Origin: Rhodopseudomonas palustris
GTDB taxonomy: Bacteria; Pseudomonadota; Alphaproteobacteria; Rhizobiales; Xanthobacteraceae
Length of the DNA stretch: 64,000 nt
NCBI RefSeq assembly: GCF_003591005.1
Contig: NZ_QYYD01000002.1
Span: 186,001-250,000 of the forward strand
Direction: 5' to 3'
Within the stretch, counting starts at the first letter, position 1; each line of letters starts with the position of its first letter. Of this stretch, positions 5,619 through 60,516 are shown in pieces. A program made the translations under genes and the position numbers. The notes beneath the pieces were generated by a model. That model made no database searches, was not told where the DNA came from, and saw only the letters and a program-made list of their open reading frames with translations.

Positions 5619-7418
5619 TTACCCCACCTTGGCGAGATCCGCCATATAGGCGCGCCAGCCGCCGAAATGCGTGATGTCTCGCGCGCCGTCCAGCGCCGCT
5701 GGTTCCACCAGGAAGCCTTTGACCATCGTGCCGTCGGCGAGCGTGATCGTGCCGATCGACAGCGGCTGCGGAATTGCGGCGACGAAGCGGCCGAATGCGG
5801 CCGGCGACAGCGTCCAGACTTCCACCGCGATCGCCGCGCCTGCGCCCGTAGCAACGCGCAGCATGCCGGGCTTCGGCGGCACCGTGCCTTTCAGGGCATA
5901 CAGCTTGTAGTCGGCTGCAGTCTCGGTGGCGCTCATCAATGTGCCGTCGAGATTCGTCAGTTCGCTGTTGAGCGCCATGCCGGAGAGATGTGCGCCGACC
6001 ACCGCGATGTTGATGCCCTCGGCGGTGGGCGCGGCTTTGACGGCCGCCAGCGCCGGCTGCGGCTTTCCCGTCGCGCCGAGCGGCAGGGCGGTGTCGGCAT
6101 GGAAGATGCGGCCGATACTGGCGAGCTCCGCATCGCGTCCGCCCGGCGCCAACAGCGTGATGCCGAATGGTAACCCGTTCGCACCGATAGATGCCGGCAC
6201 CGCGAGACCGCAGAGATCGAGCAGGTTGACGAAGTTGGTGTACGTCCCCAGCCGACTGTTGAGCGTGATCGGATCTGCCAGCACCTGGTCGACCGTGTAG
6301 ATTGTCGGCGCGGTGGGCAACACCAGCGCGTCGAAACCCGCGAAGGTCTGGTCCGCGATCTTGCGCAAGGCCTGCAAGCGATAAAGGGCGGCGAACGTAT
6401 CAGCCGCGCTGACGGTCTTGCCGCCGAGCGTGATTTGGCGCGTCACCGGATGTAGGGCGTCGGGGGTCGAGTCGATCAGCTCGCGGATCGCCAGATAGCG
6501 TTCCGCCACCCAAGGTCCTTCATAGAGCAGCCGTGCAGTCTCATAGAGCGGCTCGATATCAACCTCGATCAACTCGGCCCCGAGCCTCGTCCAGCGCTGC
6601 AGCGCGGCCGCGTAGGCCGCCTCAGCCTGCTGATCGCCGAAGAACTGCAACTGGCCGCTGCGCGGAACGCCGAGCTTCAGCCTGTCCGGCTTCGTCGTCA
6701 GCGGCGCAACCGGCCGCTCGCGCGAATAGGCATCGTTGGGATCAGGATAACCCAGCACGCGCAACGCCGCGACGGCATCGTCGACCGTCAGCGCGAAGAT
6801 CGAGATGCAATCCAGCGTGCGGCAGGCCGGCACCAGGCCAGTGCTCGAAATCAGTCCGAGGCTCGGCTTGAGGCCGACGATGTTGTTCAGCATCGCCGGC
6901 ACGCGGCCGGAGCCGGCGGTGTCGGTGCCGAGCGACAGCGGCACCAGGCCGGCGCCGACAGCGACCGCCGAGCCCGAACTCGATCCGCCGGGCACCAGAT
7001 CGGCGCGCATCGCATTGCGCGGGATGCCGTAAGGCGAGCGCACGCCGACCAGGCCGGTGGCGAACTGATCGAGATTGGTCTTGCCGATCACGATCGCGCC
7101 GGCTGCACGCAGCCGCGCCACCGCAGTGGAGTCCTGCGCCGGCTGATACGCGAAGGCCGGGCAGGCGGCGGTGGTCGGCAGGCCGGCGACGTCGATATTG
7201 TCCTTCACCGCGACCGGCACGCCGTACAGCGGCAGCGACGGATCCTTGGCGGCGAGGGCGACCGCTTCGGCGATCGCGTCGGCTTCGTCGCGCAGCGTGA
7301 TGAAGATCGCCGGGTCGCCGTGGGCGCGGATGCGTTGATAGCAGCGTGCGACGGTCTGCGCCGGCGTGGCGGTGCCGGCGCGATGCGCGGCGACGATTTC
7401 GGCGATGGTTTCGGTCAC
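5619..7418 (-). CDS. atzF: Allophanate hydrolase
   Basis: Hydrolyses allophanate to ammonium and carbon dioxide (EC 3.5.1.54), the last step after biuret or urea carboxylation. 599 residues. The amidase-signature domain occupies about 1-440, with catalytic Lys in VAVKDNIDVAG, cis-Ser/Ser in GGSSSGSAVAVGAG and LGTDTAGSGRVPA. The C-terminal domain (about 460-595) is the typical allophanate-hydrolase extension, with NIAVVGAHLSGMALN and PFSIGT-like positions. Start is a GTG at 7418, 12 bases after the stop of the upstream regulator, with GCGGAGAA as ribosome site. It is the last gene of the atzG-E-H-regulator-F chain. AtzF-type stand-alone enzyme, not fused to urea carboxylase. Confidence 0.94.
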   Translation of the reverse strand: MTETIAEIVAAHRAGTATPAQTVARCYQRIRAHGDPAIFITLRDEADAIAEAVALAAKDPSLPLYGVPVAVKDNIDVAGLPTTAACPAFAYQPAQDSTAVARLRAAGAIVIGKTNLDQFATGLVGVRSPYGIPRNAMRADLVPGGSSSGSAVAVGAGLVPLSLGTDTAGSGRVPAMLNNIVGLKPSLGLISSTGLVPACRTLDCISIFALTVDDAVAALRVLGYPDPNDAYSRERPVAPLTTKPDRLKLGVPRSGQLQFFGDQQAEAAYAAALQRWTRLGAELIEVDIEPLYETARLLYEGPWVAERYLAIRELIDSTPDALHPVTRQITLGGKTVSAADTFAALYRLQALRKIADQTFAGFDALVLPTAPTIYTVDQVLADPITLNSRLGTYTNFVNLLDLCGLAVPASIGANGLPFGITLLAPGGRDAELASIGRIFHADTALPLGATGKPQPALAAVKAAPTAEGINIAVVGAHLSGMALNSELTNLDGTLMSATETAADYKLYALKGTVPPKPGMLRVATGAGAAIAVEVWTLSPAAFGRFVAAIPQPLSIGTITLADGTMVKGFLVEPAALDGARDITHFGGWRAYMADLAKVG

Positions 7419-30419: not shown

Positions 30420-32762
30420 TTACAACGGAATACGTGCGTACAAAGCGGTGCCCTTGCCGGGCGCGGATTCGATTTCGAGCGAGCCGCCGACCAGCGTCAG
30501 CCGCTCGCGGATGCCGAGCAGGCCGAGCCGCTCCGGCGGGCGGTCGACGTCGGGATTGACGAAGCCGCGGCCGTCGTCCTCGACCACCATCATCACCTGC
30601 TGGTCGGTCAATCGCAGAATGACGCTGACATGCGTCGCGGCGGCGTGGCGGACGATGTTGGTCAGCGCTTCCTGCAGCACGCGATACAACGTCGTCTCGA
30701 TCGCGGCGGGCAGACGGCGGTCACCGAGCGTCATGTGCAGATCGAATTGCACCTGGGCTTTTTCGCTCCAGGCGTCGAGCAGATGCTGGATCGCGGTCTG
30801 AATTCCGAGATCGTCGAGCGCGGTCGGCCGGATCTCCCACGCCAGCCGGTTCACCTGCCGGCCGATATCGGCGGTGAGCGTCTTCATGCCGCTGATGCGG
30901 CCCTGAAGGTCGGCATTGTCCGGGGCGGCCTGGCCGATGGTTTCGAAGCCGAGCTGCAGCAAAGTGAGCGATTGGCCGAGCGTGTCGTGCAGTTCGCGGG
31001 CGATCCGCAGCCGCTCGGCTTCCTGATCTTCCACGGTCCGCCGCAGCACCTGCGACAGATCGGCCTCGACCGAGACGCGTCGGCGGGTCTCCTCCTGCAG
31101 GGTCTGCGCCACGTCCTGCGAGCGGCGCAGCCCGAATTCGACCTCGCGCATCAGCTGCTCCTGCAGCAGCCGCGCCGATTTGCGTTCGCGCGCGATGCCG
31201 TCGATCCGGTGCAGCACGACTTCGAGCAGCGACACCCGCAGTCGGTGCCCGGCTTCGATCTCGGAGACGAGCCATGGCTCGGCGTGCAGCCGCACCGAGT
31301 CCTGCCAGGCCGCGAAGCTTCGCCGCGGCGTCAGAAATTCTCCGCCGGGGCCGACGCCGACCGGCTTGTGCGGATTGCCGGCCCAGGTGACGGTGCGCAC
31401 CACTTCGGGCCGAAACCACAGCACGTAGTCCCGCGGCGACTTCGACAGCGACAACGCGAGCAGTCCGCTGGCGCGATCCGCGAAAGCGTTGGCCGGCGGA
31501 TAGAGCAGCGGCAGGCTGTCGGTGTGGAAGATCCCCTCGTTCGAGGTCGCGCCGAGCCAGCCGATCAGCGCTTCGGTCTGCGCCGCGTCCGGCGTGACGC
31601 CGATCCCGGTGAAGTGGCCGTCGATCCACAGCCCGACGCCGGTTGCCGGGATGAAGTCGAGCAGATTGGGATGAAACCGGATCAGCCCTTCGGCCAGATC
31701 GGATTCCTGGCTCATCCGCGTCACCAGCTCTTCGTGGATCCGCGTGCTGCGCAGCCGCGCCGCGAGTTGCTCGGCGCCGACCTTGGCCTCGAGCTGCGAC
31801 GAGGCCATCTCGGCGAACATCTCGCAGGCTTCGCGCAGCCGGTAGGGCAGATAGCGCGGCGAGCCGTGATGGCAGGCGATCAGTCCCCACAGCTTGCCGT
31901 GCTGGATGATCGACAACGACATCGACGCAACGACGCCCATATGCGCAAGGTACAGACGGTGTGCCGGCGAGACGCTGCGGATCACGCTCTGGCTGAGATC
32001 GAGCGGCTGTCCGGTTTGCGGGTCCGCGGCCGGCACGATCGGCGCCGGCGCGTAGCGCGCATCGGGAATCGCGCGCATCCAATTCGCCAGATACAGCGCC
32101 CGCGCCTGCTGCGGGATGTCGGAGGCTGGGTAGCGCAGGCCGAGGAAGCTTTCGATCCCCGCTGCGCGCGATTCGGCGATCACTTCGCCACTGCTGTCGG
32201 AAGCGAAGCGGTACACCATCACCCGTTCGAAGCCGGTGACGGCGCGGACTTCCTCGGCTACGGCGTTGCAGAACGCCTGTACGCCGTCGGCGCGTTGCAC
32301 GTGGCGGATCATCGATTGCACCAGCGCCAGCGAATTCTCCGGCGCTGCTTCCCGGCGCGGGTCGAACTCCAGGACCAGCAGCCCGGACGCCTGATGCACG
32401 ACGACGTCGACCGCAACGGCGTCGGAGCAGTTCACCTCTGGCGTAGTCAGCACGAAGGCGTGCAGCGGTCGTTCGAGCTTGCGGCCAGGTCCCAGCAGGG
32501 CGCGGACTTTGCTGATCCGATCGGCGGAGAGCAGCGTCGCGACCGAAGTCCCGGGAAGCCTGTCGGCGGGTACGCCGAACAGCGGCGCCGTATCCCCGGC
32601 GGCGTGAACGACGTGCAGATCGTCCGGAGCCAGCGCCAGCAGCGCACCATGGGGCTGGATCGATCCAGGCAGATGAATGGCTTCGCGATCGCAGAAATTC
32701 TGGCTGTCACCACCAAAATTCGTGCTTCTCAATTCCGAAAAACTGTCAATGCCAATCTGCAT
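30420..32762 (-). CDS. bphP4: Bacteriophytochrome histidine kinase (BphP4-like) with the bilin-binding Cys
   Basis: 780 residues; order PAS-GAF-PHY-HisKA_3-HATPase. Cys24 in NFCDREAIHLPGSIQPHGAL is the biliverdin attachment site. The GAF domain has YPASDIPQQAR and SPAHRLYLAHMGVVASMS with IACHHGSPRYLP; the PHY tongue carries TPRRSFAAW. Kinase: phosphoacceptor His in RIARELHDTLGQSLTLLQLG, N-box EALTNIVRHA, G-boxes EDDGRGF and LLGIRERLTLVGG, a NarX-like class that suits a LuxR partner. I start at ATG 32762, which puts the Cys at position 24 as in other family members. The locus matches the R. palustris BphP4/pucBAe region; strain CGA009 is known to have lost bilin binding there, whereas this copy keeps the Cys. 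Confidence 0.94.
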   Translation of the reverse strand: MQIGIDSFSELRSTNFGGDSQNFCDREAIHLPGSIQPHGALLALAPDDLHVVHAAGDTAPLFGVPADRLPGTSVATLLSADRISKVRALLGPGRKLERPLHAFVLTTPEVNCSDAVAVDVVVHQASGLLVLEFDPRREAAPENSLALVQSMIRHVQRADGVQAFCNAVAEEVRAVTGFERVMVYRFASDSSGEVIAESRAAGIESFLGLRYPASDIPQQARALYLANWMRAIPDARYAPAPIVPAADPQTGQPLDLSQSVIRSVSPAHRLYLAHMGVVASMSLSIIQHGKLWGLIACHHGSPRYLPYRLREACEMFAEMASSQLEAKVGAEQLAARLRSTRIHEELVTRMSQESDLAEGLIRFHPNLLDFIPATGVGLWIDGHFTGIGVTPDAAQTEALIGWLGATSNEGIFHTDSLPLLYPPANAFADRASGLLALSLSKSPRDYVLWFRPEVVRTVTWAGNPHKPVGVGPGGEFLTPRRSFAAWQDSVRLHAEPWLVSEIEAGHRLRVSLLEVVLHRIDGIARERKSARLLQEQLMREVEFGLRRSQDVAQTLQEETRRRVSVEADLSQVLRRTVEDQEAERLRIARELHDTLGQSLTLLQLGFETIGQAAPDNADLQGRISGMKTLTADIGRQVNRLAWEIRPTALDDLGIQTAIQHLLDAWSEKAQVQFDLHMTLGDRRLPAAIETTLYRVLQEALTNIVRHAAATHVSVILRLTDQQVMMVVEDDGRGFVNPDVDRPPERLGLLGIRERLTLVGGSLEIESAPGKGTALYARIPL

Positions 32763-32841
32763 CACATTTCTCTCAATTTTCCGTGTCCGGGACTCGGCGG
32801 ACCGGTTTGAGGATGTCCGGTATGACACGGACACCCCTGAG

Positions 32842-32859
32842 TGTCATGTTAAATTGACA
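32842..32859. promoter_or_regulatory. PpsR/CrtJ-type site 1, bphP-pucB intergenic region
   Basis: TGTCATGTTAAATTGACA fits TGT-N12-ACA exactly. Its right half forms TTGACA, a possible -35 element reading toward pucBA. The 346-base gap 32763-33108 contains this, the next site and no other gene. Confidence 0.7.
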
Positions 32860-32867
32860 AAGATGTG

Positions 32868-32885
32868 TGTCAGGATCATCTTACA
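32868..32885. promoter_or_regulatory. PpsR/CrtJ-type site 2, bphP-pucB intergenic region
   Basis: TGTCAGGATCATCTTACA again fits TGT-N12-ACA. The two sites are spaced 26 bases start to start, a paired layout typical for PpsR/CrtJ, which represses photosynthesis genes under oxygen. They lie 224 bases before the pucB ATG and 80-125 bases before the bphP start. Confidence 0.7.
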
Positions 32886-33108: not shown

Positions 33109-33264
33109 ATGGCAGACGATCCCAACAAGGTCTGGCCGACTGGCCTGACGATCGCGGAATCGGAAGAGCTCCACAAGCACGTCATCGACGGCACGCGCAT
33201 TTTCGGCGCGATCGCGATCGTCGCGCACTTCCTGGCGTATGTTTACTCGCCCTGGCTGCACTAA
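33109..33264 (+). CDS. pucB: LH2 light-harvesting protein, beta subunit
   Basis: 51 residues: [20 protein letters not shown] at the cytoplasmic N-terminus, then one membrane helix ([20 protein letters not shown] end) with the bacteriochlorophyll-ligand His in VAHFLAY and a second His near the N-side ([11 protein letters not shown]). It binds bacteriochlorophyll a and carotenoid with the alpha chain in the LH2 ring of the intracytoplasmic membrane. An almost perfect ribosome site, TAGGAGG, precedes the ATG by nine bases. It is followed 12 bases later by pucA. Confidence 0.97.
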
Positions 33265-33276
33265 GGAGTATCTAAG

Positions 33277-33456
33277 ATGAATCAAGGTCGCATTTGGACT
33301 GTCGTGAAGCCGACCGTCGGCCTGCCGCTCCTGCTCGGCAGCGTCACCGTGATCGCCATCCTCGTTCACTACGCCGTGCTGTCGCACACCACCTGGTTCC
33401 CGAAGTACTGGAACGGTAAGACTGCGGCGATCGAGAGCTCGGTCACCATCGGCTAA
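33277..33456 (+). CDS. pucA: LH2 light-harvesting protein, alpha subunit
   Basis: 59 residues with the canonical start [20 protein letters not shown], one membrane helix, and ligand His31 (AILVHYAVL). Tyr44-Trp45 (WFPKYW) are the residues that hydrogen-bond the ring of B850 pigments in high-light LH2, so this subunit predicts normal 850-nm absorption rather than the 820-nm form. His37 is present in SHTTWF. AAGGAG lies before the ATG. It is coexpressed with pucB; two hairpins follow, which should stabilise the short pucBA message. Confidence 0.97.
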
Positions 33457-33485: not shown

Positions 33486-33509
33486 GACCGGGATCCACGG
33501 GTCCCGGTC
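33486..33509 (+). terminator. Hairpin 2 after pucA
   Basis: GACCGGGA and TCCCGGTC form an 8-base stem around TCCACGGG. Followed by GCTTGCTTTG, only weakly T-rich. With hairpin 1 it likely sets the high pucBA to pucC expression ratio known for puc operons. Confidence 0.65.
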
Positions 33510-33671: not shown

Positions 33672-35099
33672 ATGAACACAGTCAGCCAAAAGATGATGAA
33701 GGTCTGGGCCTCGCTGGGGCCTCGCTTTCTGCCTTTCGCGGATGCGGCGACGCCGGATCTGCCTCTGTCCCGGTTACTCCGCCTGTCGCTGTTTCAAGTC
33801 GCGGTCGGCATGTCGCTGGTGCTGCTGGTCGGCACCCTGAACCGGGTGATGATCGTCGAACTCAACGTGCCGGCCTCGATCGTCGGCGTGATGGTTTCGC
33901 TCCCTCTGATCTTCGCGCCGTTTCGGGCGCTGATCGGCTTCAAATCCGACGTCCACAAATCCGTGCTGGGCTGGCGCCGCGTGCCGTTCCTCTACAAGGG
34001 GACGCTGGTGCAGTTCGGTGGCCTGGCGATCCTGCCGTTCGCGCTGCTGGTGCTGTCCGGCGGCGGCGAGGCCGGGCACGCGCCGGTGTGGATCGGTCAG
34101 GTCGGCGCCGCGCTGGCGTTTCTGCTGATCGGTGCCGGCGTGCACACCACGCAGACCGTCGGTCTCGCGCTCGCCACAGATCTCGCCGCGCCCGAGACGC
34201 GGCCGAAGGTCGTCGGCCTGATGTACACCATGCTGATGTTCGGCATGATCGCGAGCGCGATCATCTTCGGCATGCTGCTCGCTGATTTCTCGCCCGGCCG
34301 CCTCATTCAGGTGATTCAGGGGTCGGCCGTCGTCACCATCGTGCTCAACGCGGTCGCCTCCTGGAAGATGGAGGCGCGTCGCCGGACCGGCGGCGAGGTG
34401 GCCACCGCTCATCCCGGCGCGCCGGCCGGCGGCTTCCGGCAATCGTGGGATGCCTTCATCTCCGGCGACAACGCGATGCGCCGGCTGGTCGCGGTCGGTT
34501 TCGGCACCATGGCGTTCAGCATGGAAGACGTGCTGCTCGAGCCCTATGGCGGGCAGATCCTGCATCTGTCGGTCGGGGACACCACTAAGCTCACTGCCGC
34601 GCTGGCGGTCGGCGGTCTGTTCGGCTTCGGTCTCGCCTCGCGCGTGCTGAGCCGCGGCGCCGACCCGTTCCGGATGGCGAGCGCCGGCGCGCTGGTCGGT
34701 ATCCCGGCATTCCTGCTGGTGATCTTCGCGGCGGAGCTGCAGGGCGCTGCCTCGGCGCTGATGTTCGGCTTCGGCACGCTGCTGATCGGTTTCGGTGCCG
34801 GTCTGTTCGGCCACGGCACGCTGACGGCGACGATGAACGCTGCCCCGAAGGACCAGGCTGGGCTTGCGCTCGGCGCCTGGGGTGCGGTGCAGGCCTCGGC
34901 GGCCGGCGTCGCGATCGCGCTCGGCGGCATTCTGCGGGACGCGGTGACGGCGCTGGCGCCGCAGCTCGGACCGGCAGCCGGCTACAATTTCGTCTACTGC
35001 CTCGAACTGCTGCTGCTGTTCGCGACGCTCGTCACGATGGTCCCGCTGATCAGGCGACGGGACACCCTATTGATGCAGGGCCAACCCTCGCGGTCCTGA
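33672..35099 (+). CDS. pucC: PucC-like LH2 assembly factor (BCD/PUCC major facilitator family)
   Basis: 475 residues, twelve predicted membrane helices, member of the PucC/LhaA/bch2 branch of the major facilitator superfamily, required for LH assembly. Family features are LRLSLFQVAVGMSLVLLVGT, the loop RALIGFKSDVHKSVLGWRRV, VHTTQTVGLALATDLA, and the second-half MEDVLLEPYGGQILHLSVG. It begins 215 bases after pucA, past two hairpins, and is followed 18 bases later by the repeat-protein genes. The length and motifs are complete. Confidence 0.94.
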   Translation: MNTVSQKMMKVWASLGPRFLPFADAATPDLPLSRLLRLSLFQVAVGMSLVLLVGTLNRVMIVELNVPASIVGVMVSLPLIFAPFRALIGFKSDVHKSVLGWRRVPFLYKGTLVQFGGLAILPFALLVLSGGGEAGHAPVWIGQVGAALAFLLIGAGVHTTQTVGLALATDLAAPETRPKVVGLMYTMLMFGMIASAIIFGMLLADFSPGRLIQVIQGSAVVTIVLNAVASWKMEARRRTGGEVATAHPGAPAGGFRQSWDAFISGDNAMRRLVAVGFGTMAFSMEDVLLEPYGGQILHLSVGDTTKLTAALAVGGLFGFGLASRVLSRGADPFRMASAGALVGIPAFLLVIFAAELQGAASALMFGFGTLLIGFGAGLFGHGTLTATMNAAPKDQAGLALGAWGAVQASAAGVAIALGGILRDAVTALAPQLGPAAGYNFVYCLELLLLFATLVTMVPLIRRRDTLLMQGQPSRS

Positions 35100-35117: not shown

Positions 35118-35780
35118 ATGACGCAAATCATCACCCGGTTGTATGATTCCAGCAGCAAGCTCGCGGCGCTGGAAGCCGACCTGAAGAACGCCAGCTATCG
35201 CTACTCGATTGTCACCGGTTACCAAAGCGGCAAATCCAGCTCGGTGGACGACATCATTGCGGCGCTCGGCAAGGCTTACGTTCCCAGCGGCGAAGCACGC
35301 CTCTATGCGGACTACGTCAAGAAGGGCGCCGTCGTGGTCGCGGTGAAGGCCGAGTTCGGCTTCGCCGCCAAGGCCGCGGAGATCCTCGACCGCTACGGTC
35401 CCAACAAGATCAGCATTCAGAAATCGTCGTCGGCGACCGCCGAACAGAGCGAAGCGACGCCGTTCTCGAACATGCTGCATCTCAGCACGCTGCTCGACAC
35501 CTCGGGCAAGTACAAATCCTATTCCGGCGACTGGCTGCTCGTCGACAGCGACAAGACCTTCTCGGGGACGCCGCTCGTCATCAGCAGCAAGGGCCCATAT
35601 CAGTCGTTCTCCGGAACGCCGTTGCTGCTCGACAGCAGCGGTCCCTACAAGTCCTTTTCCGGGACTCCCCTGTTGCTGGACAGCAGCGGTCCGTACAAAT
35701 CCTATTCGGGCGAGCCGCTGCTGATCAACAATCCGACCATCTTCTCCTCCTGGCTGGGCCTGCCAGTGCTCTCTAAGTAA
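35118..35780 (+). CDS. YflT-like domain fused to tandem 16-residue repeats, in the puc operon
   Basis: 220 residues, no signal peptide or membrane helix. Residues 1-100 (MTQIITRLYDSSSKLAALEA, then VVVAVKAEFGFAAKAAEILD) resemble the YflT/general stress protein 17M fold, a small alpha/beta domain. A polar linker (101-130) leads to about five repeats of the form PYKSFSGTPLLLDSSG between 131 and 205, with less regular ends. It starts 18 bases after pucC (AACGGAG ribosome site) and ends 11 bases before a second gene made only of the same repeat type. I do not know a described function. Being in the puc operon suggests a role with LH2, its assembly or the membrane, but this is inference. Confidence 0.85.
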   Translation: MTQIITRLYDSSSKLAALEADLKNASYRYSIVTGYQSGKSSSVDDIIAALGKAYVPSGEARLYADYVKKGAVVVAVKAEFGFAAKAAEILDRYGPNKISIQKSSSATAEQSEATPFSNMLHLSTLLDTSGKYKSYSGDWLLVDSDKTFSGTPLVISSKGPYQSFSGTPLLLDSSGPYKSFSGTPLLLDSSGPYKSYSGEPLLINNPTIFSSWLGLPVLSK

Positions 35781-35791
35781 AGGAATTGATC

Positions 35792-36082
35792 ATGAGCGAA
35801 TACAAAGGACACTCCGGTACTCCGCTGATTCTCGAGCAGAAGGGCGAGTACGAAGGTTATTCCGGCACCCCGCTGATCCTGAAGCAGGAAGGCGAGTACA
35901 AGAGCTTCTCGGGCACGCCGCTGCTGCTGAAGCAGGAAGGGGAGTACCAGAGCTTCTCCGGTACGCCGCTGCTGCTGAAGCAGGAGGGCGAGTATCAGTC
36001 GTTCTCGGGCACGCCGCTGCTGCTGAAGCAGGAAGGCGAGTACAAGTCGTTCTCGGGCTATCCGCTGCTGCTCAACATCTGA
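35792..36082 (+). CDS. All-repeat protein (six 16-residue SGTPLLL repeats), puc operon
   Basis: 96 residues that divide exactly into Met-Ser, five 16-residue units and a 14-residue last unit. Consensus: EYKSFSGTPLLLKQEG; the first two units have ILE/ILK variants, and the last ends in GYPLLLNI. No signal, no membrane segment, no Cys. Alternating aromatic/hydroxyl and Leu-rich stretches suggest two short beta strands per unit, so a solenoid or filament is possible. AAAGGA lies seven bases before ATG 35792; the TTG six bases earlier is not needed. A strong terminator follows at 36111. Its role is unknown; the match to the C-terminal half of the upstream protein implies they interact or share a partner. 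Confidence 0.85.
   Translation: MSEYKGHSGTPLILEQKGEYEGYSGTPLILKQEGEYKSFSGTPLLLKQEGEYQSFSGTPLLLKQEGEYQSFSGTPLLLKQEGEYKSFSGYPLLLNI
35798..36079 (+). repeat. 48-base tandem coding repeat
   Basis: Six units (five of 48 bases, one of 42) in phase with codons. The middle units are nearly identical at DNA level (for example CTGCTGCTGAAGCAGGA), while the first two differ more. Such high identity implies recent unit duplication or gene conversion, and unit number may vary between strains. Confidence 0.9.
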
Positions 36083-36110
36083 GCCAGCCAGCGGCCTCTA
36101 GGCCTCAACG

Positions 36111-36140
36111 CGCCGCGGGCAGCGATGCCCGCGGCGTTTT
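36111..36140 (+). terminator. Rho-independent terminator at the end of the puc operon
   Basis: CGCCGCGGGC-AGCGAT-GCCCGCGGCG followed by TTTT: a perfect 10-base GC stem with a short T run, 28 bases after the repeat-protein stop. It marks the end of the pucB-A-C-repeat gene unit. Confidence 0.85.
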
Positions 36141-56718: not shown

Positions 56719-56736
56719 TGTAAGTTTCGCATTACA
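56719..56736. promoter_or_regulatory. PpsR/CrtJ-type site 1 upstream of crtI
   Basis: TGTAAGTTTCGCATTACA fits TGT-N12-ACA exactly, 46 bases before the crtI ATG. PpsR represses crt, bch and puc genes under oxygen. Confidence 0.8.
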
Positions 56737-56754
56737 CATTTAGACTGGTTCGGC

Positions 56755-56772
56755 TGTCAATTTTTCGTTACA
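56755..56772. promoter_or_regulatory. PpsR/CrtJ-type site 2 upstream of crtI
   Basis: TGTCAATTTTTCGTTACA fits TGT-N12-ACA exactly, 36 bases downstream of site 1 start to start. It ends 10 bases before the ATG at 56782, so repressor binding would also block the start region. Confidence 0.8.
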
Positions 56773-56781
56773 GTGGTCCCC

Positions 56782-58317
56782 ATGCTCGATCCCGGTCCCA
56801 AACCCGCGCCCCGTACCCCTGATGATCGTGCCCCGCATGCGGTGGTGATCGGCTCCGGCTTTGGCGGCCTGGCCGCTGCGGTCCGGCTCGGCGCCAAAGG
56901 GTATCGCGTCACCGTCCTGGAAAAGCTCGATCAGCCCGGTGGCCGGGCTTATGTCCACAAACAGGACGGCTTCTCGTTCGACGCCGGCCCGACCATCGTC
57001 ACTGCGCCATACCTGTTCGAGGAGCTGTGGAAGCTGTGCGGCAAGCGGATGTCGGACGACATCACGCTGAAGCCGATGTCGCCGTTCTACCGGATCCGCT
57101 TCGACGACGGCACGTTCTTCGACTACTCCGACGACCGCAACGCGGTGCTCGACCAGATCGCCAGGTTCTGCCCGGACGACGTGCCGGCCTATGACCGCTT
57201 CATGGCGGCGTCGCACGAGATCTTCAAGGTCGGCTTCGAGCAGCTCGGTGACCAGCCGTTCAGCCGCTTCACCGACATGCTGAAGATCGCCCCGGCGATG
57301 CTGCGGCTGGAGAGCTATCGCAGCGTCTACAGCCTCGTCGCCAAGCACTTCAAGGATCCGAAGCTGCGGCAGGTGTTCAGCTTCCATCCGCTCTTGATCG
57401 GCGGCAACCCGTTCATGTCGAGCTCGGTGTATTGCCTGATCACTTACCTCGAAAAGCAGTGGGGCGTGCATTCGGCGATGGGCGGCACCGGCGCGCTGGT
57501 CGCCGGCCTCGCCAAACTGATCGCAGGGCAGGGCAATCGCATCCTGTACAATCAGGACGTTCGCCAGATCGTCGTCGAGCACGGCGCGGCGACCGGCGTC
57601 AAGCTCGCTGACGGCGAAGTCATCAAGGCCGACATCGTCGTGTCCAATGCCGATTCGGCCTCGACCTATCGCTATCTGCTGGCGCCCGAGGCGCGCAGGC
57701 GCTGGACTGACGCCAAGATCGAGCGCTCGCGCTACTCGATGAGCCTGTTCGTCTGGTACTTCGGCACCAAGCGGCGCTACGAGGACGTCAAGCACCACAC
57801 CATCCTGCTCGGGCCGCGCTATCGCGAGCTGATCAGCGACATTTTCGGCCGCAAGGTGCTGGCCGACGATTTCAGCCTGTATCTGCATCGCCCGACCGCG
57901 ACCGATCCGTCGCTGGCGCCGCCCGGCTGCGATACGTTCTACGTACTGTCGCCGGTGCCGAATCTGCTCGGCGATATCGACTGGCACAGCAAGGCCGAGC
58001 CGTATCGCGCGTCGATCGCCAAGATGCTGGGAGCGACCGTGCTGCCGGGTCTCGAGGAGCAGGTGGTGAGTTCGAAGATCACCACGCCGCTGGATTTTCA
58101 GGACCGGCTGTCGTCGTTCCGCGGCGCAGCGTTCGGGCTGGAGCCGGTGCTGTGGCAGAGCGCCTGGTTCAGGCCGCACAACCAGAGCGAAGACGTCAAG
58201 AATTTGTATCTGGTCGGCGCGGGCACCCATCCCGGCGCCGGGCTGCCTGGTGTGCTGTCCTCCGCGCGCGTGCTCGATTCCCTGGTCCCCGAGGCCAACA
58301 GTCTGGTGACGTCATGA
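56782..58317 (+). CDS. crtI: Phytoene desaturase
   Basis: 511 residues, FAD-dependent bacterial CrtI. N-terminal dinucleotide site HAVVIGSGFGGLAAAVRLGA with LEKLDQPGGRAYVHKQDGF, and the C-terminal signature region NLYLVGAGTHPGAGLPGVLS. It converts phytoene through three or four steps to neurosporene or lycopene in the membrane, the start of spirilloxanthin-type carotenoids. ATG 56782 is preferred over the GTG nine bases earlier, which abuts the PpsR site. The stop overlaps crtB (ATGA). Two PpsR sites in front predict strong oxygen repression. Confidence 0.95.
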   Translation: MLDPGPKPAPRTPDDRAPHAVVIGSGFGGLAAAVRLGAKGYRVTVLEKLDQPGGRAYVHKQDGFSFDAGPTIVTAPYLFEELWKLCGKRMSDDITLKPMSPFYRIRFDDGTFFDYSDDRNAVLDQIARFCPDDVPAYDRFMAASHEIFKVGFEQLGDQPFSRFTDMLKIAPAMLRLESYRSVYSLVAKHFKDPKLRQVFSFHPLLIGGNPFMSSSVYCLITYLEKQWGVHSAMGGTGALVAGLAKLIAGQGNRILYNQDVRQIVVEHGAATGVKLADGEVIKADIVVSNADSASTYRYLLAPEARRRWTDAKIERSRYSMSLFVWYFGTKRRYEDVKHHTILLGPRYRELISDIFGRKVLADDFSLYLHRPTATDPSLAPPGCDTFYVLSPVPNLLGDIDWHSKAEPYRASIAKMLGATVLPGLEEQVVSSKITTPLDFQDRLSSFRGAAFGLEPVLWQSAWFRPHNQSEDVKNLYLVGAGTHPGAGLPGVLSSARVLDSLVPEANSLVTS

Positions 58318-59381
58318 GTTTGCAATCCGATCTGCTGGCCCAATCCGACATGCTGGCCTGCCGCGAGATGATCAAGGAAGGCTCGCACACCTTCCACGCG
58401 GCTTCCAAGGTGCTGCCGCGGCGGATCAGCGATCCGGCGATCGCGCTCTATGCGTTCTGCCGCGTCGCCGACGACGCCGTCGATCTCGGCCTCGACCGCG
58501 CCGCCGCGGTCGACGTGCTGAAGGACCGGCTCGATCGCGCCTGCCGCGGCCTGCCGCGCGCTTATCCGTCCGACCGCGCCTTCGCGGACGTGATCGCGCG
58601 CTTCTCGATTCCGCCGGCGATTCCCGAGGCGCTGATCGAAGGCCTCGAATGGGATTCGCAGGGCCGCCGCTTCGAGACGCTGTCCGATCTGTACGCTTAC
58701 TGCGCGCGCGTCGCCGGCACCGTCGGCGTGATGATGACGCTGGTGATGGGCCAGCGCCGGCCGGACATCGTCGCCCGCGCCTGCGACCTCGGCTGCGCGA
58801 TGCAGCTCACCAACATCGCCCGTGACATCGGCGAGGACGCCCGCAACGGCCGCATCTACATGCCGCTGCAATGGATGCGCGAGGCCGGTCTCGATCCGGA
58901 GAGCTGGCTCGCCGATCCAAAATTCACGCCGGAGATCGCCGGCATCGTCAAGCGGCTGATCGACACCGCGGACGCGCTGTACGATCGCGCCACGCTCGGC
59001 ATCGCCCACCTGCCGCGCTCGTGCCGGCCCGGCATCTTCGCGGCGCGTGCGCTGTACGCCGAGATCGGCCGCGAGGTCGAACGAAGCGGCCTCGACTCGG
59101 TGTCGAGCCGCGCCGTGGTCTCGACCGGCCGCAAGCTCGCGGTGCTGGCGCGCTTGCTCGCGTTCCAGGAAACCGAATGGGCGCCGGCGAAGTATCTGCC
59201 GGCGAAATTCGGCGACATGGAAGAGACCCGCTTCCTGATCGACGCGGTAATTGCCCACCCGGTCCGTGAAATGCCGGCGCGTCCCAAGGTCAAGCCGCTC
59301 GAACAGAAAGTCGCCTGGCTGGTCGAGCTGTTCACCAAGCTCGAACGCCGAGACCAGATGCTGCAACGCAGCCGGGTGTAG
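58314..59381 (+). CDS. crtB: Phytoene synthase
   Basis: 355 residues. Joins two geranylgeranyl diphosphates to phytoene (EC 2.5.1.32). Substrate-binding Asp-rich motif YAFCRVADDAVDLG, second motif NIARDIGEDARNGRIYMPLQ, and the AYCARVAGTVGVMM helix are all present. Translationally coupled to crtI by a four-base overlap and therefore under the same PpsR-type control. A repeat follows before hemF. Confidence 0.95.
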   Translation: MSLQSDLLAQSDMLACREMIKEGSHTFHAASKVLPRRISDPAIALYAFCRVADDAVDLGLDRAAAVDVLKDRLDRACRGLPRAYPSDRAFADVIARFSIPPAIPEALIEGLEWDSQGRRFETLSDLYAYCARVAGTVGVMMTLVMGQRRPDIVARACDLGCAMQLTNIARDIGEDARNGRIYMPLQWMREAGLDPESWLADPKFTPEIAGIVKRLIDTADALYDRATLGIAHLPRSCRPGIFAARALYAEIGREVERSGLDSVSSRAVVSTGRKLAVLARLLAFQETEWAPAKYLPAKFGDMEETRFLIDAVIAHPVREMPARPKVKPLEQKVAWLVELFTKLERRDQMLQRSRV

Positions 59382-59404: not shown

Positions 59405-59490
59405 CGTCATGCCCGGGCTCGTCCCGGGCATCCACGCCTTGCTGAGCAGAGGCGAAGGCGTGGATGGCCGGGACAAGCCCGGCTATGACG
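59405..59490. repeat. Palindromic intergenic repeat, family A (copy)
   Basis: CGTCATGCCCGGGCTCGTCC to GGCTATGACG with ACGCCTTGCT / AAGGCGTGGATGG inner arms, between crtB and hemF. Confidence 0.92.
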
Positions 59491-59604
59491 TCCGGGATAG
59501 GCTGTGGCCTAACACCGAGCGCGGTAGCCGCCACCCGTTTGCAAAAACTCTCGAAGCCGCCACACTGGCGTGGTACCGATGCTCACTTGCAACGGATCAT
59601 CGCC

Positions 59605-60516
59605 ATGACCATCGACGCCGACCTCGACCGCAACCCAGCAACTTCGGACGACCCGGTGGAAGCGCGCCGCACCCGCGCGCGGGCCTGGTTTGAAGGCCTG
59701 CGCGACCGGATCTGTGCCGAGATCGAAACGCTCGAGCGCGAGGCGCCGGCCGAGCTGTTTCCCGGCGAACCCGCGACCTTCAGCTACAAGCCGTGGCAGC
59801 GCAAGACCGGCGCCGGCGGCGGCGTCGGCGGCTTTCTGTCGAACGGCCGGCTGTTCGAAAAGATCGGCATCCACACCTCGTCGGCCAACGGCCGGCTGAC
59901 GCCGGAGATGGCGAAGAACCTGCCGGGCGACGGCGTCACGCTGGACTACGTCTCGACCAGCATCAGCCTGATCATGCATCCGCGCAGTCCGCGGGTGCCG
60001 ACCGTGCACATGAACACGCGCTTCCTCTCCACGTCGCAGGGCTGGTTCGGCGGCGGCGCGGATTTGACGCCGATGCTGCCGGAGCAGCGCAGCCAGGACG
60101 CCGAGGACGCGGCGATCTTTCACGCCGCCATGAAGGCCGCCTGCGACGCGCACGATCCGACCTACTACGCGAAATTCAAGCCGTGGGCCGACACCTACTT
60201 CTTCCTGCCGCATCGCGGCACGGCGCGCGGCGTCGGCGGCATTTTCTACGATCACCTCAATAGCGGCGATTTCGAACGCGACTTCGCCTTCACCCGCGAC
60301 GTCGGCTCGGCGCTGCTCGACATCTACCCGAAGATCGTCCGCAAGCGCATGGTCGAACCCTGGACCGACGCGGAGCGCGCCCAGCAGCTCGCCTGCCGCG
60401 GCCTGTATGTCGAGTTCAATCTTCTGTACGACAAGGGCACGATGTTCGGCCTGCAGACCGGCGGCAACACCGAAACTATCATGAGCTCGATGCCGCCGCT
60501 GGTGAGCTGGAGCTGA
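59605..60516 (+). CDS. hemF: Oxygen-dependent coproporphyrinogen III oxidase
   Basis: 303 residues. Converts coproporphyrinogen III to protoporphyrinogen IX with O2 (EC 1.3.3.3), the aerobic form of the step served by HemN without oxygen. Signatures: KTGAGGGVGGFLSNGRLFEK, VPTVHMNTRFLST, GGADLTPMLPEQ, HRGTARGVGGIFYDH, YVEFNLLYDKGTMFGL. ATG 59605 has CGGA about nine bases upstream. It lies after crtB but is separated by a repeat, so it may have its own promoter. Two microprotein genes follow 34 bases later on the same strand. Confidence 0.96.
   Translation: MTIDADLDRNPATSDDPVEARRTRARAWFEGLRDRICAEIETLEREAPAELFPGEPATFSYKPWQRKTGAGGGVGGFLSNGRLFEKIGIHTSSANGRLTPEMAKNLPGDGVTLDYVSTSISLIMHPRSPRVPTVHMNTRFLSTSQGWFGGGADLTPMLPEQRSQDAEDAAIFHAAMKAACDAHDPTYYAKFKPWADTYFFLPHRGTARGVGGIFYDHLNSGDFERDFAFTRDVGSALLDIYPKIVRKRMVEPWTDAERAQQLACRGLYVEFNLLYDKGTMFGLQTGGNTETIMSSMPPLVSWS

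Follow-up and report, generated by a model that had tools for sequence, protein, structure and literature searches.

A candidate LH2 partner family with serine-unit tails encoded beside LH2-gamma in the puc operon of Rhodopseudomonas palustris

Introduction

In Rhodobacter capsulatus PucD/PucE, the 14-kDa 'gamma' of LHII, is encoded after pucC and is linked to the stability of LH2. A gamma polypeptide has been shown physically on LH2 of Rhodopseudomonas palustris, where LH2-gamma (RPA1495) is present in all four LH2 types described (PMC9618040). According to that study it is an extended ribbon which runs round six of the nine alpha/beta pairs at the cytoplasmic rim of the LH2 ring, and each of its six serines is the ligand of the Mg of one extra BChl a. 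The chain resolved by cryo-EM has 97 residues and is an intact pigment-binding ribbon, and a BLASTp search in the same paper found gamma restricted to Rhodopseudomonas (PMC9618040). The protein list of low-light LH2 also includes gamma (Q6N9P5; PMC9897067). Another gene, rpa3011, lies beside pucBAd and is described as a "hypothetical protein"; at least 14 of 17 strains up-regulate it along with pucBAd when light is low (PMC6879726). The window analysed here, meaning the whole stretch of 64,000 nucleotides of R. palustris DNA, contains a puc operon in which pucC is followed by two repeat-protein genes, referred to as gene 1 and gene 2 (Table 1).

Results and Discussion

The puc operon of the window and LH2-gamma

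The puc genes of the window lie beside a divergent bacteriophytochrome gene, a homolog of which adjoins the puc operon in most Rhodopseudomonas loci and in L107. The named neighbours of the operon genes are pucC, the phytochrome and an FMO-like gene. Residues I26, Y44 and W45 of PucA are those of the LH2 type in the typing scheme of PMC5069747. The initial annotation had placed gene 1 closely behind pucC and gene 2 closely behind gene 1, and the gaps of 18 and 11 bases were confirmed. The five genes pucB-A-C-gene1-gamma would form one operon with a single transcript and, judged by gene order, gene 1 would be the ortholog of RPA1494.

Table 1. Features of the puc locus in the window and related genes in other loci (positions are those of the window unless a locus is named)
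Feature	Position	Strand	Evidence or remark
Bacteriophytochrome histidine kinase gene, divergent from puc	30420..32834	-	Pfam PAS_2, GAF, PHY, HisKA_3, HATPase_c
Two TGT-N12-ACA palindromes upstream of pucB, 8 bases apart	32842-32859, 32868-32885	+	
pucB (LH2 beta, 51 aa)	33109..33264	+	sequence; 96-98% match in G020, G064, G060
pucA (LH2 alpha, 59 aa)	33277..33456	+	Pfam LHC 6.1e-14
Hairpin between pucA and pucC	33486..33509	+	10-pair stem identical in 17/17 Rhodopseudomonas-lineage loci
pucC (LH2 assembly factor family)	33672..35099	+	Pfam PUCC 6.4e-150
Gene 1, 220 aa, LH2-linked: YflT-like N-domain and Ser-unit tail	35118..35780	+	
Ferredoxin-like alpha/beta N-domain (residues 1-95 of gene 1)	35118..35402	+	AlphaFold2 pLDDT
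Gene 1 tail (residues 113-220), made of a PFS unit, five SG units and, at the end, an FSSWLGLPVL unit	35454..35777	+	
Gene 2, LH2-gamma, 96 aa from ATG, six BChl-ligand repeats	35792..36082	+	PDB 7zcu_S match
Intrinsic terminator-like hairpin at operon end	36110..36137	+	12 pairs, 10 G-C
145-aa repeat protein	L042 6073-6510; L044 3077-3514; L047 225-662; L102 10165-10602		
Paralogs away from puc genes, similar N-domain, GLPVL-type tail	L064 4954-5478; L054 5103-5609; L066 4767-5258; L104 6416-7138; L154 1180-1623		

The terminator that had been proposed behind gene 2 does exist as a hairpin. A scan of the window found 4 terminator-like sites against 3.7 expected in shuffles, that is, no excess. 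The hairpin 3' of gamma outscored all 340 shuffles in 16 of 17 Rhodopseudomonas-lineage loci (exception L040), these 17 being drawn from the 21 lineage loci with gene 1 behind pucC, with L042, L044 and the two of L102 left out. The score of the second hairpin, between pucA and pucC, equals the top score among the shuffles made for the post-gamma hairpin. It is likely a transcript attenuator or stabiliser and may hold the levels of pucC, gene 1 and gamma below those of pucBA. Upstream of pucB are the two TGT-N12-ACA palindromes, which fit the consensus of PpsR/CrtJ-type sites; the whole window has 11 matches to this pattern against 4.3 expected in shuffles. A second such pair is found at 56719-56772, some 1.4 kb ahead of a phytoene-synthase-type gene (58152-59381) that is followed by a coproporphyrinogen oxidase gene (59464-60516). 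The window thus extends to other pigment genes.

Gene 2 matches the LH2-gamma chain of PDB 7zcu (7zcu_S) by phmmer at 9.5e-49 over residues 2-96 of its 96 residues, and it is virtually certain that gene 2 is LH2-gamma, the ortholog of RPA1495 (Qian 2022). Its six Ser-Gly (SG) pairs are invariant in 14 of 14 aligned gamma orthologs, an alignment that excludes a four-unit copy from L042. The published sequence Q6N9P5, compared by eye, equals the gamma of L037. The repeats noticed earlier in both proteins were found again, five SG units and a terminal FSSWLGLPVL in gene 1 and six units in gene 2. They are not a product of chance, because the tandem-repeat scores are 135 for gene 1 and 257-359 for gene 2. 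Both genes had been called undescribed and foreign to the known puc components. For gene 1 the first of these descriptions stands, but gene 2 is the published LH2-gamma, so that the second is wrong for it, and the idea that both genes are new was rejected. A modified multi-core peptide, also considered at first, was rejected because the gamma ortholog is an intact pigment-binding chain in the cryo-EM structure; moreover, no modifying enzyme is present among the named neighbours.

Variant copies of gamma were observed in a few loci. In L042 a gamma with only four units (6566-6772) adjoins a 145-aa repeat protein, and in L041, which is also an LH2 locus of this genome (G008), gamma has the normal six units. 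In L034 (6111-6365, 5450-6100) and L036 (6028-6282, 5367-6017) gamma and gene 1 are composed mostly of 13-residue repeats instead of 16-residue ones; the repeat length shifts jointly in the two neighbouring genes.

Gene 1 has a predicted folded domain and a gamma-like tail

In the AlphaFold2 model of gene 1 the N-domain has a pLDDT mostly of 86-91, with one block at 62, and the element order beta-alpha-beta-alpha-alpha-beta-alpha. The model of a distant family member shows the identical element order at a pLDDT of about 90-98. Confidence drops in the tail, to about 42 in gene 1 and about 50 in the distant member. S117 and the five SG pairs of the tail are invariant in 19 of 19 aligned gene 1 members of the genus Rhodopseudomonas, and the tail matches the gamma chain 7zcu_S at 4.2e-28. 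Gene 1 therefore has the SG repeats with ligand serine that characterise LH2-gamma. It does not consist of repeats only as gamma does, since its residues 1-95 are predicted to be folded, mostly with high confidence.

The label 'YflT-like' given earlier to gene 1 holds at the level of profiles, as comparison with five alphaproteobacterial YflT-type proteins gave an hhalign probability of 98.6% (E 1.4e-15), though Pfam returned no match for the gene 1 protein of the window, which stays below the gathering score of YflT (PF11181). Two of the five comparison proteins were checked against Pfam and both pass PF11181. When 20 family members were searched with Pfam and NCBIfam, solely YflT was returned, weakly and in 2 of the 20 (best E 0.0014). 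A fold search with two family models matched nothing in the PDB at E 0.001. One of the two result lists was headed by the gamma chain itself (E 0.02), and the other entries were generic NDK and PII-like folds. No description of gene 1 was recognised in the available text of the literature on LH2-gamma, PucD/PucE and genes downstream of pucC, nor were the locus names RPA1494 and RPA1493 found in the literature searched, in which RPA1495 is named by one paper. The gene 1 family is apparently undescribed, and these searches gave it no name or function beyond the weak YflT matches.

Gene 1 accompanies LH2 genes in alphaproteobacteria

A gene 1 match was found in 16 of 16 Rhodopseudomonas genomes, and in 15 of them a full-length gene 1 lies between pucC and gamma; in the remaining one (G012) the assembly breaks in the repeats. 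In the family sample of 296 genomes complete LH2-linked copies occur in those 15 and in G020, G064, G060 and G150. The last of these is the only genome with a match among the 18 of genus g27, and it has pucBAC and a gene 1 without SG repeats and without gamma.

In the order sample 53 of 297 genomes have some profile match at E 0.001. Matches of 1e-12 or better are present in 16 of the 297. All 16 belong to the 62 genomes in which pucC was found, and the 235 pucC-negative genomes have no such match. In the class sample 9 of 289 genomes have matches of 1e-16 or better, again all among the 21 that are pucC-positive. It should be noted here that both cut-offs were chosen after the hit lists had been seen and that the genome of the window is included in both samples. 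The co-occurrence with pucC for which the initial annotation had suggested a search is thus present for strong matches, and the possibility raised there, that homologues lie mostly far from photosynthesis genes, is refuted, as the strong relatives in the order and class samples are all beside LH2 genes. The genome searches score only the best first-look candidates per genome, about ten with the gene 1 profiles, and the absences given below may therefore be misses.

Two homologs of pucC, or pucBA adjacent to pucC, were taken as the mark of an LH2-type genome. By this definition gene 1 adjoins the LH2 genes in 18 of 23 LH2-type genomes of the order sample, including two true members (G354, G390) that fall below the 1e-12 line. 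In the class sample 9 genomes have two pucC homologs, and gene 1 lies beside the LH2 genes in 8 of them, the exception being G708; G679, with one partial pucC, has gene 1 beside pucBA. No gene 1 was seen by the LH2 genes of G325, G367, G431 and G480, which belong to one genus, and none was found in the LH2-bearing G708 and G885. These genomes indicate that LH2 can do without gene 1 in some cases. The pucC of G382 is on a short contig that contains neither pucBA nor gene 1. Nine of the 39 other pucC-positive genomes of the order were opened and had neither pucBA nor gene 1. Family f64 (99 genomes) has 17 pucC-positive members; ten were opened, two are LH2-type (loci L225 and L226) and one of these has gene 1 (G903). 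Seven LH2-type genomes were without a local copy. Three of them have no N-domain match, and the matches found elsewhere in the other four (E 1.7e-8 to 3.6e-7) look like YflT-type hairpin proteins that lack the tail. A minority of the weak matches were opened: L108-L111, L152, L153 and L221 are other YflT-like proteins, and L154 is a paralog treated below.

Outside the Rhodopseudomonas lineage the position of gene 1 varies. Over 27 loci it comes after pucC in 14, between pucA and pucC in 7 (in L216 it is 2.2 kb before pucC, and L218 has a second pucBA) and on the opposite strand beside pucBA in 6. The gap from pucC to gene 1 ranges from -4 to 218 bases in 35 loci. In L225 the gene 1 relative (6190-6867) overlaps pucC by 4 bases and lies near groES/groEL-like genes as judged by eye. 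The distance matrix of the N-domain tracks that of pucC over 33 loci (r 0.81, 0 of 2000 permutations), a correlation which species history alone could also generate. From this distribution gene 1 very probably belongs to an LH2-linked family, and the LH2 partnership suggested for the two genes is borne out by the identity of gene 2 and by the strong gene 1 relatives beside LH2 genes.

Tail units outside Rhodopseudomonas

The last 115 residues of 27 proteins from outside the Rhodopseudomonas lineage, several of them close relatives, contain 45 units defined by their flanks, and all 45 have serine where gamma has its ligand; the unit pattern was written post hoc and leaves the serine position unnamed, though serine had already been seen there. 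With a serine content of 12.6% in these tails, shuffled tails gave a mean of 0.36 units and a maximum of 3. Two of the 27 (L149 and L225) have no unit by the flank pattern, and L225, from family f64, has four similar GGYKPVIPMPLLS-type repeats that lack serine at the ligand-like position. Outside the Rhodopseudomonas lineage the units are few and irregularly spaced. A profile of 16 such proteins alone gave no gamma match in the PDB at E 10, and its direct comparison with gamma is weak (hhalign 42%, E 2.6e-4). The link therefore runs via the gene 1 of Rhodopseudomonas, which holds both kinds of unit. A ligand role common to gene 1 tails and gamma would accordingly be founded on the unit pattern together with the Rhodopseudomonas members.

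These tails bear on the idea that the gene 1 tail resembles gamma merely through recombination of adjacent repeats, the gene itself having a function unrelated to LH2. Gene conversion would produce what was seen in L034 and L036, where both proteins carry 13-residue repeats. But the LH2-linked members of other families, which have no gamma, keep both the linkage and the serine units, and the correlation of N-domain with pucC distances points the same way, subject to the effect of species history. This idea is considered very improbable.

Paralogs and low-light operons

Two loci, L051 and L053, carry beside pucBA a paralog about 38% identical to gene 1 of the window; neither stretch has pucC or gamma near it. 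By the scheme of PMC5069747, L053 has an alpha gene of LH4 type (MFM) near the paralog and L051 one of LH3 type (IFM). The order in L053 is pucBA, the paralog on the other strand, pucA and two phytochromes, the same as described for strain CGA009 (PMC6879726), and from this gene order the L053 paralog would be RPA3011. A further relative is a 145-aa repeat protein without the N-domain, which has eight SG units in exact 16-residue register and a terminal FSS unit, so that the tail can exist as a separate polypeptide. It was observed near LH4- or LH2'-type puc genes, the nearby alpha genes being MFM in L042, L044 and L047 and IYM in L102. It is possibly a longer gamma for the nine-fold ring.

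Paralogs with a profile match of 99.7% also occur away from puc genes, in 19 of 296 genomes of the family sample, all of the Rhodopseudomonas lineage. In another family, G427 has a 147-aa paralog with a GLPLL-type tail away from puc genes (L154). By position, therefore, the wider gene 1 family is not purely photosynthetic. Those of L064 and L054 adjoin alpha-amylase-like genes, as judged by eye.

Such paralogs, together with an N-domain related to that of YflT, a heat-induced stress protein, could be explained if gene 1 were a stress or regulatory protein whose gamma-like units bind LH2 to dissociate, quench or protect it. A stress partner had been among the early suggestions, and what upholds that suggestion is the distant YflT similarity. 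This similarity is remote, the best direct Pfam match being the one quoted above for 2 of 20 members; gene 1 is part of the LH2 operon or its direct neighbour, and in low light the expression of RPA3011 goes with that of LH4. We consider a stress or regulatory role quite improbable. A filament anchored by the YflT domain, proposed at the same time, found no support.

Origin of gamma and proposed role of gene 1

With the gamma profile a stand-alone gamma was detected in G020, G064 and G060. A search of 27 other carriers of gene 1 yielded none; a weak match in G903 (4.7e-4) falls inside the genome's own gene 1. As stand-alone gamma is seen only in the Rhodopseudomonas lineage, it probably arose from the tail of gene 1. 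Gene 1 is probably the wider and older form and gamma the tail without the domain. On this distribution we regard the derivation of gamma from the gene 1 tail as likely. In a poorly resolved, midpoint-rooted tree of the N-domain the off-puc Rhodopseudomonas paralogs group with the Rhodopseudomonas gene 1, so that a local duplication history is possible, and the tree does not settle strict orthology between the Rhodopseudomonas gene 1 and the genes of other families.

Our data could be accommodated in the following mechanism. Both genes would encode LH2-specific partners within one pucB-A-C-gene1-gamma operon. Gamma is, as shown for the R. palustris ortholog, the ribbon of the cytoplasmic rim whose six serines hold six extra BChl a, and gene 1 would consist of a soluble ferredoxin-like (YflT-like) domain and a long, flexible tail whose units contain serine. 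The tail units of the Rhodopseudomonas proteins would be the gamma repeats, gamma having been copied from the tail minus the domain. The gene 1 tail may run over nascent alpha/beta subunits at their cytoplasmic face, held partly by ligation of BChl by serine, and may aid the loading or ordering of B800-level pigment during PucC-guided assembly. Gene 1 would then depart, gamma being the version that stays. Overall, we give a probability of about one in two to the explanation in which gene 2 is gamma and gene 1 is an LH2-linked protein with a role in assembly or pigment loading. That the tail of gene 1 contacts LH2 and BChl is somewhat probable; a transient role in assembly or loading is a tentative proposal whose chances fall a little short of even.

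Instead of leaving the complex, gene 1 could be a labile or conditional subunit of LH2 that binds the alpha/beta pairs in the manner of gamma, brings BChls with it and comes off in detergent or is made only under certain conditions. Its SG units, with five invariant pairs, are close to those of gamma, the paralog beside pucBAd is apparently induced in low light as judged by synteny, and some genomes have the domainless 145-aa protein. The published accounts of four cryo-EM structures and two mass-spectrometry studies of purified LH2 report gamma and, as far as their available text goes, not gene 1 (PMC9618040, PMC9897067), and the units outside the Rhodopseudomonas lineage are few and irregular. 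Since purified LH2 is reported with gamma only, a transient role of gene 1 is favoured over a permanent subunit with moderate confidence, and a labile subunit is considered unlikely. To extend the transient role further is more speculative, and we hold this extension to be less likely than not. The gene 1 family may be a widespread, overlooked LH2 assembly protein whose cytoplasmic domain is joined to a disordered ribbon that carries BChl by means of its serines. Gamma and its longer version with eight SG units and one terminal unit, found in some low-light LH2 operons and offering about one unit per alpha/beta pair of the nonamer, may then be domainless tails that were turned into permanent antenna.

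Few antennas have been studied as well as LH2, yet a conserved gene to which our searches gave no name or function adjoins pucBAC in most of the sampled alphaproteobacterial LH2-type genomes. The gene 1 family is a testable candidate for the loading of the monomeric B800-level pigment. It may also explain where the gamma ribbon, detected in Rhodopseudomonas alone by PMC9618040, came from. The 145-aa relative bears on a question asked by the authors of that paper, why gamma covers six of nine subunits. RPA3011, a low-light induced and uncharacterised protein, gains a likely identity.

Comparison with known systems

The place after pucC and the link to LH2 are features that gene 1 and gamma have in common with PucD/PucE of Rhodobacter capsulatus. 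LH1 gamma of Blastochloris viridis shares with LH2-gamma its name and its place outside the antenna ring (PMC10214105). It differs in that it encircles LH1, is present in 16 separate copies and contacts mainly the beta ring (PMC10214105). RPA3011, beside pucBAd, would be the LH4-linked paralog of gene 1 by synteny with L053, and it is called only a hypothetical protein in the text available from PMC6879726. The YflT domain (PF11181, heat induced stress protein) is similar to the N-domain of gene 1 at the level of profiles. Gene 1 is unlike YflT in having neither the glycine-rich hairpin nor a Pfam match, and its tail is absent from the five YflT-type proteins compared. Gene 1 is distinguished from LH2-gamma (RPA1495, Q6N9P5; PDB 7ZCU, 7ZDI, 7ZE3, 7ZE8) by its folded N-domain, by five SG units and FSS-type units, by a far wider distribution and by being unreported in purified LH2. 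Gene 2 agrees with LH2-gamma in its six repeats and six invariant Ser-Gly pairs, and gene 1 carries SG units of this kind in its tail.
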